Below, one piece after another: positions 3,001 to 44,912 of a DNA stretch of 64,000 nt. This DNA comes from Robertkochia flava (GTDB lineage: Bacteria > Bacteroidota > Bacteroidia > Flavobacteriales > Flavobacteriaceae). The DNA lies in assembly GCF_020166515.1 (NCBI RefSeq), contig NZ_JAINZT010000002.1, positions 310,001-374,000 of the forward strand. The letters are read 5' to 3'. Below the pieces are notes generated by a model. That model was not told the DNA's origin. It made no database searches and saw nothing but the letters and a program-made list of their open reading frames with translations. The first letter of the stretch is position 1. Every line of letters begins with the position of its first letter. The position numbers were made by a program, and so were the translations under genes.

Positions 3001-3215
3001 TTTGGGGACCGGCGAACTCTGAGGCCTATCCAACCATAAGAACAAGGGTTTACGACCGTTACGGAAGGGTAGTTGGTGAAATGCGCGTCGGACAATTCTG
3101 GGATGGTACTTATAACGGATCTCCATTACCTACGGGAGATTACTGGTACGTGATCAAGTTCGATGAAGAAGAGGATGCCAGAGAGTTTGTAGGACACTTT
3201 ACCCTGTACAGATAA
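1..3215 (+). CDS. T9SS type B sorting domain surface protein (SprB-like repeats), 5' end cut by window
   Basis: The reading frame is open from base 3 at the left edge, so the true start lies upstream; the first ATG at 75 is internal. The protein is a chain of roughly 80-residue beta-rich modules with the pattern Cys-x-G...GG-x-x-PY...G-x-Y-x-x-x-V-x-D-x-x-G-C, typical of SprB-type repeats in gliding adhesins (for example modules beginning PTCFGEAT, VTCLNNRG, TTCFGSNTG). The last 85 or so residues, from NFFTPDGD to the terminal FTLYR, form the gliding-motility-associated C-terminal domain used by the type IX secretion system (type B). The product is therefore predicted to be exported across the outer membrane and held at the surface. 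It sits 16 bp before a PorP/SprF gene, the usual partner of type B substrates. Ligand unknown. The C-terminus is paralogous to the two large proteins downstream, but its DNA is more diverged. Confidence 0.9.
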   Translation, partial: TDPTPEIDLEITDNCDPSGQYEITVNMTQEGIAPYTLSVNGAVRPVTIDSSTPYVITGLSAGTYDIAITDANGCGVNVTGTIDIVPLDYSAQVTGLLYCDGPAAITIDNISGSGPFAYAIDGPGAADQAQTTLDPAGTTWNGATVAGTYTITVYDLNGTCSLTREVVVPERVEPVINLVSLQDPSCSGDLGQIIVSSPDNGIGPFTFEIVDIDGTAAAIAPNQTDGYTATFSNLNGDTAGITYTIRATAQNGCVVEISETITSPEPVAMPTPRVTHFSCNAGSNSFNNALVVVDPATITGGSGSYVRYAFNFNGVTQVSSNPQFIVTDTRGGTGTVTVYDSNNCSVTRNFIIDPFIGIENPQLNVDTTATCVNGEDVTVSVDIFEGLSGTPGTTDLLYTLTDINGNPLENSGTITATGSSSHTFSGLAPGAYFINILNEYTGCEVSLSHTVDDPNTFVMTATVVDPTCFGEATGSVELTMIDTFLGDGNQAGSFDYEIRRVSDDALVASGNSNGLSNITVGSLPAGHYAAIATITSGGLGCSVEPTEFTITQPQEDLTATIEEVHNVTCLNNRGEIYVDASGGYPYYEITLVGQNTGYSETHTNVDGWVFLGLEADIYTAYITDAQGCTFETLPVELIRPEFISAEITGQPTTCFGSNTGEVSAINITGGAGPDSYYFELYDQAGNQIGESQESPVFTELVAGSYYIKVLDPWDCDFETEVFVVTDPQEISVNVTDQPTVVCYGTTDGYYEFNMTGGTAPYTVSLYHPDSDTPVETFTGIGLAEAVTFWDLEGDVEYRVEVTDANTCTTETTFMIPTGPDLSAAVDVVYECSTNLPENYIEVSLINSTLDLAEVMYALNTDDINQAVLFNEIIDGKGIVRNVPAGADQFITIFHEGCAQVMPAGEFFEVIAYEPLELSLANEQLNVIDFNATGGQPPYNYYVNGEYRGDDADYRIRETGTYEVVVVDANGCESRAEIFVEFYDIDIPNFFTPDGDSNNDVWGPANSEAYPTIRTRVYDRYGRVVGEMRVGQFWDGTYNGSPLPTGDYWYVIKFDEEEDAREFVGHFTLYR

Positions 3216-3217
3216 CG

Positions 3218-3224
3218 AAAGGAG
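3218..3224 (+). promoter_or_regulatory. Strong Shine-Dalgarno-like site before porP/sprF gene
   Basis: AAAGGAG lies 7 bases before the ATG at 3232, in the 16-bp gap after the preceding stop. Bacteroidota usually lack clear Shine-Dalgarno sequences, so a near-canonical site here is noteworthy and supports 3232 as the start. Confidence 0.5.
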
Positions 3225-3231
3225 ATATATC

Positions 3232-4194
3232 ATGATGAGAAAACTTATTTATGCTACCATGGCCCTTGTCGGGATGCACGCTTCAGCCCAGGAGCTTACC
3301 CTTCCGACATTTACCCAGTACACCTCGGATAATGAGTTCGTTATCTCGCCTACCTACGCGGGAATCGGAGATTATGTGAAGGTGAGGGGAAATGCCCTGA
3401 CCCAGTGGGTGGGCATCAAGGATGCCCCGGATACCCAGACGCTGGTGGGGGATGTCCGACTCGGACAACGCTCCGGAACCGGAGTGCTGTTTTACAACGA
3501 CCGGAATGGGTACACCCGTCAGTTGGGGGCCAGACTGTCTTTTGCCCACCACCTGACCCTGAATAATATGGACGACAAGTTTCTGTCGTTCGGATTATCG
3601 TATAATGTGAACCAGTTTCGGATCGACATCAATGAATTTGACCCGAATGCAGATCCCTCTATAACCGACGACAGAGCTACCACCAACCACAATTTTGATG
3701 TGGGCATCCTGTACCGTCATGGAAAATTCTTTGCGAGTTTAAACGCGGCGAACATCCTGAATAAGGACCTGAACGTTTTTGCGATCTCTGAACCAAACCG
3801 TCTTCGTAATTATTACTTGTACACCGGGTATCGCTATAAGGAGAGAATAACATCCAACTGGGAATATGAACCTTCGGTGTTCTTCCAGTTGTTTGAAAGT
3901 GACGGCCGTTCGAGTACCGATGTGAACTTCAAGGTTCGGTACTGGAAATTTCAGGGCGAACGGGATGAAGAGTATTACTGGTTTGGATTGACCTACCGGT
4001 TCCTGAATGACCAGTTCCTAAACCCTTGGAATATCGGTCCGATGGGAGGCCTTAAAAAGGGAGGTTTTTATTTTGGCTATAGCTACCAGGTGATCTTTAA
4101 TGAGATCCAGCTGTACAGTACAGGTACGCATGTGATCACTGTTGGAGTCGACCTGTTCCAGGGAATCAGCAATTGTAAATGTACCATGCGCTAA
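3232..4194 (+). CDS. PorP/SprF family type IX secretion outer-membrane protein
   Basis: A 320-residue protein with an N-terminal signal peptide ending in HASAQ (about residue 20) followed by alternating beta-strand sequence with many aromatic residues and a C-terminal region typical of an outer-membrane barrel. The conserved opening after the signal peptide (LPTFTQYTSDNEFVISPTYAG) matches the PorP/SprF family. In Flavobacteriia these proteins are co-encoded with T9SS type B substrates and are needed for their secretion or surface anchoring (SprF with the adhesin SprB is the model). It is the only PorP/SprF gene in the window, directly after one type B substrate and upstream of two more, so it may serve all three; that sharing is inference. 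ATG at 3232 is followed by a second ATG; the first has the better-spaced ribosome site. Confidence 0.9.
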   Translation: MMRKLIYATMALVGMHASAQELTLPTFTQYTSDNEFVISPTYAGIGDYVKVRGNALTQWVGIKDAPDTQTLVGDVRLGQRSGTGVLFYNDRNGYTRQLGARLSFAHHLTLNNMDDKFLSFGLSYNVNQFRIDINEFDPNADPSITDDRATTNHNFDVGILYRHGKFFASLNAANILNKDLNVFAISEPNRLRNYYLYTGYRYKERITSNWEYEPSVFFQLFESDGRSSTDVNFKVRYWKFQGERDEEYYWFGLTYRFLNDQFLNPWNIGPMGGLKKGGFYFGYSYQVIFNEIQLYSTGTHVITVGVDLFQGISNCKCTMR

Positions 4195-40215: not shown

Positions 40216-41568
40216 ATGTTCCATAAACAGGGAAGATATTCCGGACTCCTTAAGCCTATTTCCTATTTTTTGGATCTGTCATTTGTAATTGGCCTGGCGG
40301 TCATTTTACCGCTAAGATTGCATTATCCCCTGCTGCTTATTTCATATTTATTTGTCGGGTGGATCGTGATTTCCGTTAAGAACGAGTTCTATGAAGTGGA
40401 ACGCTATGCAAAGATTTCGCGTGTATTTTCCCTGCTCTTTCGCCAGTTCGTAGTCTACTTTGTCGTGCTATACGCTTTTATCGGATTCTTTAAGGAGCAC
40501 CTCGTTAGCCGTTTAATGCTTGCACAGTATTTTGCCTTGACCTTCTTCCTTGTTGCTTTCTTTAAGATCCTGATGTATTACCTCCTGCAGCGTTACAGGG
40601 AGACCCTGGGGGGCAATTTTCGGAATACTGTGGTGGTCGGGAATAATGCAAAAGCCCAACAGCTTATACAGATATTTAATAATCACCCGGAATTCGGTTA
40701 TGTATTTAAAAGAAAATTCACACCGAAATCCAAGTCCTTCTCCGTTCAGGAATGTATCGACTTCATCGAAAGCCATGAAATAGATGAGATTTATTGTTCC
40801 GTGGCAGAGCTTACAAATATTCAACTCGCGGAGATCGTTCACTTTGCAGACAACAACCTTAAGGCGGTAAAGTTTATACCTGATAATAAATTCATTTACA
40901 ACAAGCGACTTAAGTTTGATTATTACGATTATCTGCCAGTATTGTCGCTCCGGGATATCCCTCTCGAAGCATCCATTAACTACTTTCTGAAACGGCTGTT
41001 CGACATTGTGTTTTCCCTTGGCGTTATCGTGTTCCTGCTTTCCTGGTTAGTGCCTTTGATGGGAATTCTGATCAAGCTCGAATCCAGGGGCCCTGTATTT
41101 TTCAAGCAGAAACGACATGGTATCAATGGAGATGAGTTCCGGTGTTATAAATTCCGTTCCATGGCGGTGAATCAGGATGCTGATAAAGCCCAGGCAACAA
41201 AGGGAGATATGCGGGTCACCAAAATTGGAAACTTTATGCGCAAAACCAGTATTGATGAATTGCCGCAGTTCTTTAACGTGCTCTTCGGCCAGATGTCAGT
41301 AGTGGGGCCGCGACCTCACATGGTTTTCCACACGGAACTTTACGGAAATCTTGTAGATAAGTACATGGTACGCCACTTCGTAAAACCAGGAATTACCGGG
41401 TTGGCCCAGGTAAGAGGGTACCGCGGTGAGATCACCCAGGATAGCGATATCATTAACCGCGTCCGACTGGATATATTTTATGTGGAAAACTGGACCATGG
41501 CGCTTGATTTTAAGATCATTATCGATACCGTACTCAATGTGTTCAGAGGCGAGGAGAACGCATACTAA
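40216..41568 (+). CDS. Undecaprenyl-phosphate glucose phosphotransferase (WbaP/WcaJ type)
   Basis: 450 residues. Four hydrophobic helices in the first 120 residues, then a CoA-binding-like domain (VVVGNNAKAQQLIQIF), and from about residue 255 the polyprenyl-phosphate sugar phosphotransferase domain with its membrane re-entrant helix (KRLFDIVFSLGVIVFLLSW), KLESRGPVFFKQKRHGINGDEF, YKFRSM, KTSIDELPQFFNVLFGQMSVVGPRPHM and the terminal DIFYVENWTMALDFKII. It loads the first sugar phosphate, probably glucose-1-phosphate, on undecaprenyl phosphate and so starts the repeat unit. Base composition is again like the chromosome. The 79-bp gap before it is T-rich. Confidence 0.92.
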   Translation: MFHKQGRYSGLLKPISYFLDLSFVIGLAVILPLRLHYPLLLISYLFVGWIVISVKNEFYEVERYAKISRVFSLLFRQFVVYFVVLYAFIGFFKEHLVSRLMLAQYFALTFFLVAFFKILMYYLLQRYRETLGGNFRNTVVVGNNAKAQQLIQIFNNHPEFGYVFKRKFTPKSKSFSVQECIDFIESHEIDEIYCSVAELTNIQLAEIVHFADNNLKAVKFIPDNKFIYNKRLKFDYYDYLPVLSLRDIPLEASINYFLKRLFDIVFSLGVIVFLLSWLVPLMGILIKLESRGPVFFKQKRHGINGDEFRCYKFRSMAVNQDADKAQATKGDMRVTKIGNFMRKTSIDELPQFFNVLFGQMSVVGPRPHMVFHTELYGNLVDKYMVRHFVKPGITGLAQVRGYRGEITQDSDIINRVRLDIFYVENWTMALDFKIIIDTVLNVFRGEENAY

Positions 41569-41623
41569 GAATTTTATAGTTTCCCACGTTTAAGTGGTCA
41601 ACCTATATCAGGGACGAACAATA

Positions 41624-41742
41624 ACTCACAACTCACAACTCCCGACTCCCTACTCCCTACTCCCTACTCCTGACTCCTGACTCCTGACTCCCGACTCATC
41701 ACTCATCACTCATCACTCATCACTCATCACTCATCACTCATC
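41624..41742 (+). repeat. Heptamer tandem array, 17 units of ACTCnnn
   Basis: Exactly 119 bp = 17 x 7. Every unit begins ACTC. In order the last three bases are ACA x2, CCG, CCT x3, CTG x3, CCG, ATC x7. Identical units are grouped, as expected from local slippage or unit duplication. It fills most of the 241-bp gap between the WbaP-like gene and purD and ends 12 bases before the purD -7 box. The flanking parts of the gap (41569-41623, 41763-41809) show nothing else. Confidence 0.97.
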
Positions 41743-41754
41743 ACTTTATTTACC

Positions 41755-41762
41755 TATCTTTG
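41755..41762 (+). promoter_or_regulatory. Bacteroidota -7 box (TATCTTTG) for purD
   Basis: TATCTTTG is a perfect match to TAnnTTTG, 47 bases before the purD ATG. The -33 position would fall inside the last heptamers of the repeat array, which contains no TTG. Confidence 0.65.
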
Positions 41763-41809
41763 CACTCCAAAAACATTGTCTAATCCATTTTCAGTTAAAG
41801 CAGAGTAAC

Positions 41810-43084
41810 ATGAATATCCTCGTACTCGGTTCCGGTGGACGTGAACACACCTTCACCTGGAAGATCGCTCAAAGTAAACTTACCGATAACCTTTTTGTAG
41901 CTCCAGGAAATGCGGGGACTGCCCGTATCGCTACCAATGTAGCAGTAGCCCCGGACGATTTTGAAGCTGTAAAAAAGCTGGTTATCGAGAAGCAAATCGA
42001 TATGGTAGTGGTCGGACCTGAAGATCCGCTGGTAAAGGGGATCTACGATTATTTCAGAGACGAGGAGGAACTGAAGGAAGTCATGGTTATCGGGCCGTCT
42101 AAAACCGGAGCTATTCTCGAAGGGAGTAAGGAGTATGCCAAGGAGTTTATGTCAAGGCACAACATTCCTACTGCAGCATACCAGAGTTTTACAGCAGATA
42201 GCCTGGAGGCCGGTTATGCATTCCTGGAGACCCTCAAGGCGCCTTACGTGCTTAAGGCTGACGGTCTGGCAGCAGGAAAGGGTGTACTTATCATAGACGA
42301 CTTGAACATAGCTAAACAGGAGCTAAAAAAAATGCTGGTTGATGCCAAGTTCGGAGATGCCAGCGCCAAGGTGGTTATTGAAGAAATCCTGAGCGGAATT
42401 GAACTCAGTGTTTTTGTGCTTACCGACGGGAGCGATTATATGATCCTGCCAACCGCCAAGGATTACAAGCGTATCGGGGAAGGAGACACCGGGCTGAATA
42501 CCGGTGGTATGGGCGCCATTTCTCCCGTGCCTTTTGCGGATTCTGACTTTATGAGAAAGGTGGAAGAGCGCATCGTAAAACCTACCGTGGAAGGATTCGC
42601 GAAAGACAATATTGATTACAAGGGATTTGTGTTTATCGGACTCATTAAAGTGGCCGGAGAACCCTATGTTATCGAATACAATGTAAGAATGGGTGACCCG
42701 GAAACCGAAGTGGTGATTCCGAGGGTGAAAAATGATATGGTAGACCTTTTCCTGGCAGTCGCTAACGGCACGCTTAACCAGAAAACCCTTGAAACTGATC
42801 CTCGCACGGCTACTACCGTTATGGCAGTTTCAGGAGGATACCCGGAGGCGTATGAGAAAGGGAAGGAGATCGTAGGACTGGATAAGGTAACAGATTCTAT
42901 TGTGTTTCACGCCGGGACCAGTCAGGACGGAGACAAGGTGGTAACCTCAGGAGGCCGTGTAATAGCTTTCACTTCTTTCGGGGACAATTACCGGTCTGCC
43001 CTTAAAACGTCCTACAGCAGTCTTAATAAGGTTTGTTTTGACGGGATCTACTACAGGAAAGATCTTGGGTTTGATTTGGAGTAG
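41810..43084 (+). CDS. purD: Phosphoribosylamine-glycine ligase (GARS)
   Basis: 424 residues, full length. Joins phosphoribosylamine and glycine with ATP in purine synthesis. N-terminal motif VLGSGGREHTFTWKI (residues 4-18), APGNAGTARIA, the ATP-grasp lid with LKADGLAAGKGV, GIELSVFVLTDG, YKRIGEGDTGLNTGGMGAISP and the metal-binding YNVRMGDPETEVV are all present, and the C-terminal domain ends normally. The gene is flanked on both sides by heptamer repeat arrays and is not linked to other pur genes here. Confidence 0.98.
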   Translation: MNILVLGSGGREHTFTWKIAQSKLTDNLFVAPGNAGTARIATNVAVAPDDFEAVKKLVIEKQIDMVVVGPEDPLVKGIYDYFRDEEELKEVMVIGPSKTGAILEGSKEYAKEFMSRHNIPTAAYQSFTADSLEAGYAFLETLKAPYVLKADGLAAGKGVLIIDDLNIAKQELKKMLVDAKFGDASAKVVIEEILSGIELSVFVLTDGSDYMILPTAKDYKRIGEGDTGLNTGGMGAISPVPFADSDFMRKVEERIVKPTVEGFAKDNIDYKGFVFIGLIKVAGEPYVIEYNVRMGDPETEVVIPRVKNDMVDLFLAVANGTLNQKTLETDPRTATTVMAVSGGYPEAYEKGKEIVGLDKVTDSIVFHAGTSQDGDKVVTSGGRVIAFTSFGDNYRSALKTSYSSLNKVCFDGIYYRKDLGFDLE

Positions 43085-43090
43085 ACGAGT

Positions 43091-43118
43091 TAAATGCGAA
43101 GCGGGATGCGTGATGCGA
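43091..43118 (-). repeat. Short heptamer array, minus orientation (left arm)
   Basis: Read on the minus strand from 43118: TCGCATC, ACGCATC, CCGCTTC, GCATTTA. It begins six bases after the purD stop. Together with bases to 43120 it forms the left arm of an imperfect inverted repeat with 43585-43613: 11 bases perfect (GTGATGCGAAA at 43110-43120 versus TTTCGCATCAC at 43585-43595) and 23 of 29 positions overall. Confidence 0.85.
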
Positions 43119-43144
43119 AAAGGAATTCAAAGATAAAAAATCTA

Positions 43145-43505
43145 TCAAGGCTTAAGTTTTTGCCTTAAGCCTTTTATATAGTTTAATAGCATTCTTCTTG
43201 TATATTCAATTCGATTTTCAACCTCAGGGTTATGTTTGATGAATTCTAACTGGCAGGTTATATCAAGTTGAGTTTCCAGTTCTGCTAAGGAACCTAAAGC
43301 GATATACAAAAAGCGTATTAAATCTTTAGTAGAACCTCGAGCAGCTCCTTCGGCAATATTGGAAGGCACAGAGATAGCCGAACGCTTTAATTGACTGGAA
43401 AGAAAGTCCGAACATTTCAGACTCGGGTAATGCCGAAGTAATATTATAAATGTCCTTAACCAGGGACATGGATTCTTTGTATACCCTTAGATTTTTATGA
43501 TGCAC
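43145..43505 (-). pseudogene. Four-helix-bundle protein (23S rRNA IVP family), frameshifted
   Basis: Reading the minus strand from a GTG at 43505 gives HHKNLRVYKESMSLVKDIY and then SALPESEMFGLS; an extra base in the A-run at about 43399-43401 then shifts the frame. Removing one base gives SSQLKRSAISVPSNIAEG and continues RGSTKDLIRFLYIALGSLAELE to the stop at 43145. That is a complete four-helix-bundle protein of the 23S rRNA intervening-sequence family (about 119 codons), broken by one indel. The family is widespread in Bacteroidota, is related to Avd of diversity-generating retroelements, and has no settled function. The gene is bracketed by inverted heptamer arrays. GTG start uncertain. Confidence 0.85.
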
Positions 43506-43586
43506 AACATTTAGAATATATTCTATAAATTTAATACTATATTCTAAATGTTTGGATGGATCTTAATTTAATATTTTTTACAACTT

Positions 43587-43649
43587 TCGCATCACTCGTC
43601 ACACCTCGCACTTCCCGCATCACACGTCACACATCACACTTCGCGCATT
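43587..43649 (+). repeat. Degenerate heptamer array, plus orientation (right arm)
   Basis: Nine 7-mers in register: TCGCATC ACTCGTC ACACCTC GCACTTC CCGCATC ACACGTC ACACATC ACACTTC GCGCATT, consensus near ACaCnTC. It shares the unit type with the ACTCATC units before purD, and starts with the same TTTCGCATCAC word as the oppositely oriented left arm at 43091-43120. Between the pseudogene and this array (43506-43586) there is only AT-rich DNA. Confidence 0.88.
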
Positions 43650-43718
43650 TCCATAATCCAAAAATCCCCGAAAGCCTTGGCCTCCGGGGATGTTCAGAAT
43701 AAATATGCTATCCGGAAA

Positions 43719-43940
43719 TTACAGGTACGAATGCGCTGAAATATCCTTGTTTTCTTCGTTGTTATCGTTGAAGATCTTCAATTGCCCCATCCAGTATATA
43801 AAGGCTACAAAACCTACGATCATAAAGATCCAGTTAATGGTATTGGCACCCCACCAGCTGTCCATGCTTCTTAAGAAATTAAGTGGTGCGAATAATATTT
43901 CTTCAAATAAGTACTGGATACCGTAGAAAAAATCACTCAT
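43719..43940 (-). CDS. Small membrane protein, DUF6341 family
   Basis: 73 residues with a central amphipathic region (YLFEEILFAPLNFLRSMDSWWGANTIN) and one membrane helix at about 37-53 (WIFMIVGFVAFIYWMGQL), followed by a charged tail. Small proteins of this sequence are conserved in Flavobacteriia next to the DUF6427 gene and upp; I recall the family name DUF6341, moderately sure. Function unknown. It is divergent from the DUF6427 gene with 48 bp between start codons, so the two share a promoter region. Confidence 0.78.
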   Translation of the reverse strand: MSDFFYGIQYLFEEILFAPLNFLRSMDSWWGANTINWIFMIVGFVAFIYWMGQLKIFNDNNEENKDISAHSYL

Positions 43941-43988
43941 GAGTAAAAGTTATATTAAATTTACCCAGCAAAAATACAAAAAGCGCCC

Positions 43989-44912
43989 ATGATATCAAGC
44001 ATTTTTGGAAGAACTAAGCCTATAAATTTCGTTTTACTTGCCTTGTTTGCATTCGTTTTTCTGATTTGCTACTATCTGCTCTCGGTCCCGGGAGGATTAA
44101 CGCTAACCCTTTTACCCGATTTATTGCTGACCGTTCTTCTGGTAACTTTTACGATGCTTTTAATTGAGTTTATCAACCGTAAAAATGGGCTTACAAAAGA
44201 CAATACCTACCTGAGTTTTTTCTTTTTGCTGTACCTCTGCATGTTTCCGAAGATCTTTGCAGATGTGCAGGTAATTATCTCTCATATCTTTGTTTTGCTG
44301 GCCTTCAGGCGGGTGATCAGTATCAAAAGCGGACAGGAGGTGCGTTCGAAGATCTTTGACGCGAGTATCTGGGTGTTTGTTGCTGCCTTGTTTTACAGTT
44401 GGTCGGTAGTTTTTCTGGTGTTGGTATTTGCGGGTATCTTTCTGTATGGGGTTAACTATTATAAAAACCTGCTGGTGCCCTTTGTGGCATTTCTTACCGT
44501 TGCCATTCTTGCCGTAACCTATAAATTATATATGGGCGATGCCCTCCTTTGGAGTGACTTCTTTGACCTGACCCCCACATTTAGCCTGGACAAATACGCA
44601 GATCTTCAATTTGTGTTGCCGCTGGCTTTTATTTCGGCCTTTGGGTTTGTTTCTGTGGTGTATTATTTTATGAAAGTAAGCGGACGCGCCTATAAAGCCC
44701 GGATTCCCGGATGGTTGATAATGATCTTTCTGCTGCTCTCGGGAGTAGTGGTAGCCCTGGTGGAAAGTGCCAATACCTCCGAGCTTATTTTTGCAGGATT
44801 CCCATTATGTGTAATGATGGCCAACTACCTGCAATCGATAAAGAAAAAATGGCTGAAAGAGCTTTTCCTATGGTTGTTTCTGGCAGTACCCCTGGTTGTT
44901 CTATTTTTGTAG
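43989..44912 (+). CDS. Polytopic membrane protein, DUF6427 family
   Basis: 307 residues with about nine to ten membrane helices from residue 12 to the C-terminus and short loops (FGRTKPINFVLLALFAFVFL at the start, VKVSG-type loop near 225, NYLQSIKKKWLKEL before the last helix). Belongs to a Flavobacteriia-restricted family that I recall as DUF6427; no catalytic motif is visible. The stop overlaps the stop end of the converging upp gene by 12 bases, so neither has room for a classical terminator. Functional link to DUF6341 and upp is only by neighbourhood. Confidence 0.78.
   Translation: MISSIFGRTKPINFVLLALFAFVFLICYYLLSVPGGLTLTLLPDLLLTVLLVTFTMLLIEFINRKNGLTKDNTYLSFFFLLYLCMFPKIFADVQVIISHIFVLLAFRRVISIKSGQEVRSKIFDASIWVFVAALFYSWSVVFLVLVFAGIFLYGVNYYKNLLVPFVAFLTVAILAVTYKLYMGDALLWSDFFDLTPTFSLDKYADLQFVLPLAFISAFGFVSVVYYFMKVSGRAYKARIPGWLIMIFLLLSGVVVALVESANTSELIFAGFPLCVMMANYLQSIKKKWLKELFLWLFLAVPLVVLFL

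Follow-up and report, generated by a model that had tools for sequence, protein, structure and literature searches.

The window, a 64,000-nucleotide stretch of the Robertkochia flava genome, holds a gene of the 23S_rRNA_IVP family (PF05635, hereafter IVP) on the minus strand of the spacer between the convergent genes purD and DUF6341. The gene is bracketed by two inverted arms, with a short palindrome upstream of it and a solo array upstream of purD (Table 1). The sequence-only reading had called the gene a broken IVP, and both pieces match PF05635, at profile positions 1-38 and 43-104 and in different frames; the N-terminal piece taken alone falls below the PF05635 cut-off. The two pieces are one IVP gene split by a frame change. 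Open IVP relatives occupy the purD/DUF6341 site in G001 and G003 (G000 denotes the window's genome and G001 to G004 four congeners).

Table 1. Features of the IVP locus and of the array near purD (window positions)
Feature	Position	Strand	Description
Solo period-7 array, upstream of purD	41623..41745	+	
Left inverted arm, 3' side of IVP gene	43092..43120	+	some three worn 7-bp units
23S_rRNA_IVP (PF05635) gene, split by a single frame change	43145..43505	-	C-terminal piece 43145-43369, N-terminal piece 43326-43505
TAGA-N6-TCTA palindrome, upstream of IVP gene	43512..43525	-	
Right inverted arm, 5' side of IVP gene	43585..43648	+	period-7 array, about 7 units, G-rich strand into gene

The arms first proposed from the letters (the left arm of Table 1 with 43585-43613) are 29 nt long and complementary at 23 of 29 positions (79%), and the 11-bp perfect core is present. 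When partners for the reverse complement of the right array were scored, the real partner reached 17, against a maximum of 12 across 60 random windows of 900 bp from this genome. Both arms had been said to continue as arrays; this is strong on the right, where TRF reports a period-7 array (43588-43648), and weak on the left, where there are about three worn units, TRF lists none, and the lag-7 score of 9 lies under the array threshold. The array near purD had been assigned to the same 7-mer family as the arms, which is partly right: the purD unit and the arm consensus agree at 6 of 7 positions in the window's species and at 5 of 7 in G001, and in G003 the periods are 8 and 7. A wider perfect inverted repeat of 15 bp lies near the palindrome (43506-43520/43538-43552). 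Rfam gave no match at E<=0.5 in 41500-44100, and a reading of the region as a known RNA was dropped on that result.

Matched inverted arrays flank many IVP genes in the genus

PF05635 matches number 15 in G000 and 14, 9, 13 and 7 in the four congeners. After neighbouring fragments were merged, these 58 matches in 5 genomes gave 53 loci, low-scoring ones included. The inverted arms claimed around the window's IVP gene recur among them: arrays (score >=12) stand on both sides at 27 of 53 loci, while 26 lack clear two-sided arrays and one arm is under the threshold at purD/DUF6341 in G000 and also in G003. The flanks share a common plan, in which the left array runs G-rich into the gene, the right array is its reverse complement, and the unit is peculiar to each locus. 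Among the 300-bp flanks of the 53 loci, 22 on the left and 15 on the right have lag-7 arrays, as compared to 7 in 400 kb of background, and 13 and 9 have lag-8 arrays, as compared to 4; other lags appear 0 or 1 times per side, except for 9 (4 and 2) and the multiple 14. The two arms of a locus have the identical period in 26 of the 27 two-armed cases, where shuffling predicts 11.8 (periods 5 to 11 allowed). Unit identity between the arms of one locus is 0.80 (n = 26), versus 0.60 between loci of equal period (n = 292). G exceeds C in 25/27 left and 27/27 right units.

A TAGA-N3-8-TCTA palindrome, nearly always with N6, lies within 130 bp upstream of the hit (at about 30-90 bp) at 25 of 53 genus loci. 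Its background rate is 0.0026 per 130 bp and it occurs at 0/80 loci outside the genus; it is perhaps a genus-specific operator.

Five IVP loci of the window's genome lie within about 55 kb of an exopolysaccharide-type locus (G000:C10:10000-67000; L055, L056, L057) that carries a Wzz-type kinase and a UDP-glucose dehydrogenase. Many congener copies are also clustered, and several match different neighbours on either side, as if modules were shuffled at IVP cassettes. At G001:C3:504287-519717 several IVP copies are broken by stops or split matches, and decay of the gene seems to be common.

The layout recurs in distant bacteria

PF05635 matches were found in 89 of 120 genomes sampled from the host's family (1-16 each) and in 61 of 80 sampled from its phylum at a completeness of at least 95%. 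We examined the flanks in a set of 80 relatives from Bacteroidota, Cloacimonadota, Desulfuromonadales, Omnitrophota, Bipolaricaulota and others, many of them MAGs with names taken from record titles. An array excess around IVP genes of other genomes, on which the sequence-only reading had staked its case, was found: arrays stand on both sides at 50/80 loci, a count that retains L135, whose left 'array' is a run of N, and L189, with 4 bp of right flank. Single control windows reached an equal array score in 31 of 594 cases. Leaving out 3 loci with short flanks, arm pairs scored >=15 at 78% of 77 loci when each locus kept its own arms, in 6% of 616 swapped pairs and in 1.4% of 142 control pairs. 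The period is equal at 42 of the 50 two-armed loci, with G exceeding C in 37/42 left and 33/42 right units; among the 8 loci whose arms differ in period are one N artefact and a Dysgonomonas pair. In these two Dysgonomonas species the IVP gene and its arrays lie between co-directional genes, before an iron-sulfur subunit gene (L156, L181; about 3001-3399), and the arms have periods 8 and 7.

Six further genomes were searched whole. They show two-sided arrays at 17 of 30 loci (30 fetched of 32 matches listed), always with equal period (17/17), at 6 to 9 bp. Six seed loci among the 30 had been picked for strong arms; without them both arms are present at 11/24 loci, again with equal period in 11/11. 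Two-sided arrays are not clear at 30/80 loci of the many-phyla set and at 13/30 in the six genomes. The cassette layout is real and recurrent across distant bacteria, and the association of gene and arrays, with matched arms, is well supported. Two features of the first description gave way: the period is 7, 8 or 9 and once 6, not strictly a heptamer, and the units are locus-specific in place of a single 7-mer family.

Period and unit on the IVP tree

Mapped onto the IVP tree, the period changes 19 times, as compared to a shuffled mean of 29.5; 0 of 300 shuffles were as low and none gave fewer than 24 (88 of 130 loci, those with a period call). Among IVPs that are at least 70% identical, the period is equal in 93% of 15 pairs and mean unit similarity is 0.74. 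Over all pairs, unit similarity had no clear tie to protein identity (Mantel r 0.066, permutation maximum 0.169). The unit behaves as if it drifts faster than the protein. The idea that the protein reads the unit as a binding code was rejected, the Mantel test not being convincing.

Arms change together

At purD/DUF6341 the IVPs of G000, G001 and G003 form one clade (99/94), which also takes in two more copies from G001, in a genus tree of 51 of the 53 loci that the window copy entered by its longer piece only. The units at this site are about GTGATGC in G000 (the arms read GTGTGAA and GGGATGC), GGGTTAT in G001 and GGGCTAA in G003. The match drops when right arms are swapped from one species to another: over 7 site groups, 3 of 3456 arrangements were as high, the observed one included. 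The groups were chosen by hand, leaving out sites without arms and pairs from the same genome; one member of group B is tied by one flank only, and group G consists of two of four members. In groups C to F the IVPs do not each make up a single clade, and some sites may therefore have been filled twice or converted.

Mismatches between arms were counted at 3001 paired positions (99 of 132 loci, arm match >=15), giving 173 G.U, 182 A.C and 373 others. Selection for an RNA stem would be expected to leave more G.U than A.C mismatches on that strand. There is no excess of G.U, so arm complementarity seems to be maintained in DNA rather than in an RNA stem; the RNA side of the analogy with rRNA intervening sequences, drawn in the sequence-only reading, was not borne out, and the RNA-stem reading was demoted. 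Copying of whole arms should place the unit variants in mirrored order. This was seen at 10/66 loci (p<0.05), and whole-arm copying was rejected on this count. The mismatch pattern fits template switching between inverted repeats, a process that homogenizes arms and is documented in other systems (PMC8794818).

Cassettes and solo arrays at orthologous sites

Comparison of the purD-DUF6341 regions with those of relatives, as the first reading had proposed, shows the cassette present or absent at orthologous sites. Of 149 genomes 143 gave a match, and 30 loci were fetched; with the window's own genome and one without purD excluded, 28 other genera were compared, and in 28/28 purD and DUF6341 overlap, abut or are separated by no more than 180 bp, and no IVP is present. 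Within the genus, G002 has a clean 103-bp spacer with both neighbour genes in place. By purD identity G002 (89.8%, partial) is nearer to G000 than are G003 (86.1%) and G001 (78.0%), which implies that the cassette either vanished from this site and left no trace, or arrived there on more than one occasion. In G004 the region is rearranged: the two genes share a strand, 1.1 kb separates them, and there is neither IVP nor array.

Three further spacers add to this picture. Between mscL and asd in G000 the cassette starts directly after the mscL terminator, and in G001 these genes are also neighbours but the spacer is clean; no mscL precedes asd in G002, G003 and G004, where the asd side alone is comparable. 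The spacer that precedes purD, bordered by one and the same pair of genes, contains a whole cassette in G001, an array alone in G000 and G003, and neither in G004. A third spacer, with a cassette at G000 C6:172362, has no IVP in G002 (both neighbours kept) or in G001 and G003 (one neighbour).

The four spacers yield 12 IVP-less site-species cases, the rearranged G004 region being excluded, with array scores of 98, 71, 70, 19, 18, 16, 11, 10, 7, 6, 6 and 5. Scores of at least 16 occur in 6/12, versus 1.25% of random 300-bp windows, and neighbours are kept on both sides at 3 of these 6 sites. IVP-free arrays thus occupy spacers where a relative has a cassette, consistent with the earlier suggestion that arrays are scars, and solo arrays may be leftovers of cassettes. 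Compared for a target-site duplication, the empty sites are too diverged for the cassette edges to be placed. No fresh copy at two sites was found among the compared loci, and no actual transposition event was seen in the compared genomes. Cassette mobility rests on a few sites. Insertion beside terminators was rejected, despite the mscL-asd case, with 5/199 arm edges within 15 bp of a terminator in a scan.

IVP genes and arrays across genomes

We compared ten IVP-free and ten IVP-rich genomes (7-16 matches), which belong to different genera of one family and were selected on copy number, completeness and contig size. The array census disregards units that themselves repeat every 1-4 bases. 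The IVP-free genomes had two period-7-9 arrays in 800 kb sampled, both of period 9 and thus none of 7/8 bp; the sampled stretches of the IVP-rich genomes had 21, of which 17 were of period 7 or 8. The counts differ at P = 0.0012 for period 7-9 and P = 0.0007 for 7/8 bp in tests that ignore kinship. Eighteen of the 21 arrays lie away from any IVP and three near one.

In 2 Mb (400 kb of the window's genome, placed away from known IVP loci, and 1.6 Mb of 20 others) the sole inverted array pair encloses an IVP. Stretches chosen for their IVPs hold 19 inverted pairs that enclose an IVP and 19 that enclose none; some of the latter span neighbouring cassettes and others lie in array-dense stretches. 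The sequence-only reading had also counted arms in relatives that never had the IVP gene as evidence against itself. This applies in part: arrays without IVP do exist, but the 11 background arrays tested had no inverted partner above their null. Mixed-unit inverted array pairs with no recognisable IVP gene were observed at L057:2300-4350, L046:150-600, L059:14560-15100 and L052:12900-13420; they are possibly eroded or IVP-less derivatives.

The IVP protein

To our knowledge, stand-alone PF05635 members have no established function. Purifying selection acts on IVP genes, which do not look like junk: for the five closest pairs dN/dS is 0.03-0.08, with a high dS in some of them, and the median pN/pS is 0.30 (n = 139 pairs). 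The solved-structure match of IVP is one chain, XCC0516 (2GSC) from X. campestris, which is described as a homopentamer of four-helix bundles (PMC4990558). A survey lists 18 IVP-family genes in cas loci, one of them between cmr3 and cmr2 (PMC3936711). A role in defence was dropped when 3 IVP proteins matched 0 families among the PADLOC models.

Relation to known repeats and elements

Like a 23S rRNA intervening sequence, the cassette places a PF05635 gene (broken in the window, open in relatives) inside complementary ends. Unlike it, the window cassette lies in the purD-DUF6341 spacer and not in rRNA, and its arms are tandem arrays with a locus-specific unit and no sign of RNA-level pairing. 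The Coxiella intervening sequence has a 28-bp terminal stem and is processed by RNase III (PMC4990558). PF05635 resembles Avd of diversity-generating retroelements in sequence and structure (PMC10053308). Avd, however, partners with a reverse transcriptase; none (PF00078) was found in the 5 genus genomes, and a reading through reverse transcription was rejected for that reason.

REPIN/RAYT systems share with the cassettes short extragenic repeats, inverted pairs and a tie to one dispersed gene family. They differ in that their REPs sort into a small number of groups across the genome (three in P. fluorescens SBW25), whereas each cassette locus has its own unit, and in that Y1 transposase was found in 1 of 5 genus genomes, with 0 matches in G000; the RAYT reading was rejected on this distribution. 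The terminal repeats of a MITE are constant, unlike those of the cassettes, whose units differ between copies.

The Xanthomonas GGGAATC heptamers (Rehm et al. 2015, PMC4692102) are also 7-bp G-rich units, with 70 and 75 convergent inverted pairs in two genomes. They are of one genome-wide unit type, unlike the cassette arrays, and IVP genes are not mentioned in the accessible text of that paper. They merit re-examination because the IVP homologue whose structure is solved (2GSC) comes from X. campestris. TAACTGA repeats of Beggiatoaceae and some Bacteroidetes are likewise 7-bp direct repeats in spacers, and other heptamers adjoin the long Gramella arrays (PMC4679880). As described in the available sections of that paper, the TAACTGA unit is constant and the arrays mostly one-sided, near start codons and with no IVP link. 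Heptamer repeats are reported to be over-represented in many bacteria, and detailed literature on them is stated to be unavailable (PMC4692102). No published link between IVP genes and arrays was found in open-licence PMC papers (preprints excluded), and as far as searches of these papers go, the cassette layout is undescribed.

Interpretation

We find it somewhat probable that array, gene and inverted array form an IVP cassette whose arms undergo concerted evolution and can persist once the gene is gone. The arms would drift by slippage, and their inverted copies would be maintained by a DNA process, the simplest being a replication-fork hairpin in which one arm serves as template for the other. 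The IVP protein may bind the repeat strand and promote or tolerate this templating. The period would then become a property of the IVP protein, a ring of five four-helix bundles in the solved relative, and loss of the gene could leave a solo array.

The chief alternatives account for parts of these data. Genomes may simply be prone to 7-9-bp slippage arrays in their spacers, with co-located IVP genes causing nothing. Arrays distant from IVP genes are indeed common in the window's genome and in other IVP-bearing genomes, and a heptamer excess is known in many bacteria (PMC4692102, PMC4679880). Matched inverted arms of one period are, however, not expected by chance, and none of the 11 tested background arrays had an inverted partner, which leaves this explanation unlikely. 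We regard as distinctly unlikely an RNA device, in which a transcript stem is trimmed by RNase III as in 23S rRNA intervening sequences and the insertion is thereby tolerated. Its complementary ends would enclose the same gene family as those sequences do, and some cassettes lie between co-directional genes, as L156 in Dysgonomonas; against it, G.U is not in excess over A.C (173 to 182). In the genus, moreover, the 5'-side arm lies upstream of the likely promoter, placed with what we take to be the Bacteroidota -7 motif, TAnnTTTG, and a transcript started there would thus carry only one arm.

A classical mobile element, whose arms are recognised by a trans-acting transposase in the manner of MITEs or REPIN/RAYT, appears very improbable. 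Several copies per genus genome (7 to 15 matches), presence and absence at sites, and inverted ends are all what it predicts, and REPINs are inverted doublets tied to RAYT transposases (PMC3116915). The ends of the cassettes nevertheless vary between copies with no common recognition sequence seen, and the enzymes looked for are scarce or missing in the genus genomes (Y1 transposase in 1/5, reverse transcriptase in 0/5).

A stronger form of the concerted-cassette reading gives IVP itself an active part, and we infer that the protein may generate the arrays. As a repeat maker, IVP would be a ring protein without a polymerase of its own that sets a slippage step of 7, 8 or 9 bp while one arm templates the other; it would build and renew inverted arrays at its own gene, and solo arrays elsewhere or after loss of the gene. 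We put this forward tentatively and consider it doubtful. If true, a repeat-making IVP would explain much of the unexplained heptamer excess in bacterial genomes. The cassette would be an unusual mobile unit, with ends that vary from copy to copy yet match each other. The link between IVP and arrays makes both the function of the protein and the source of the repeats testable, and gives IVP its first candidate substrate at the sequence level. PF05635 is a widespread family, and its cassette appears to be of an undescribed kind that may be a cause of short repeats in bacteria.
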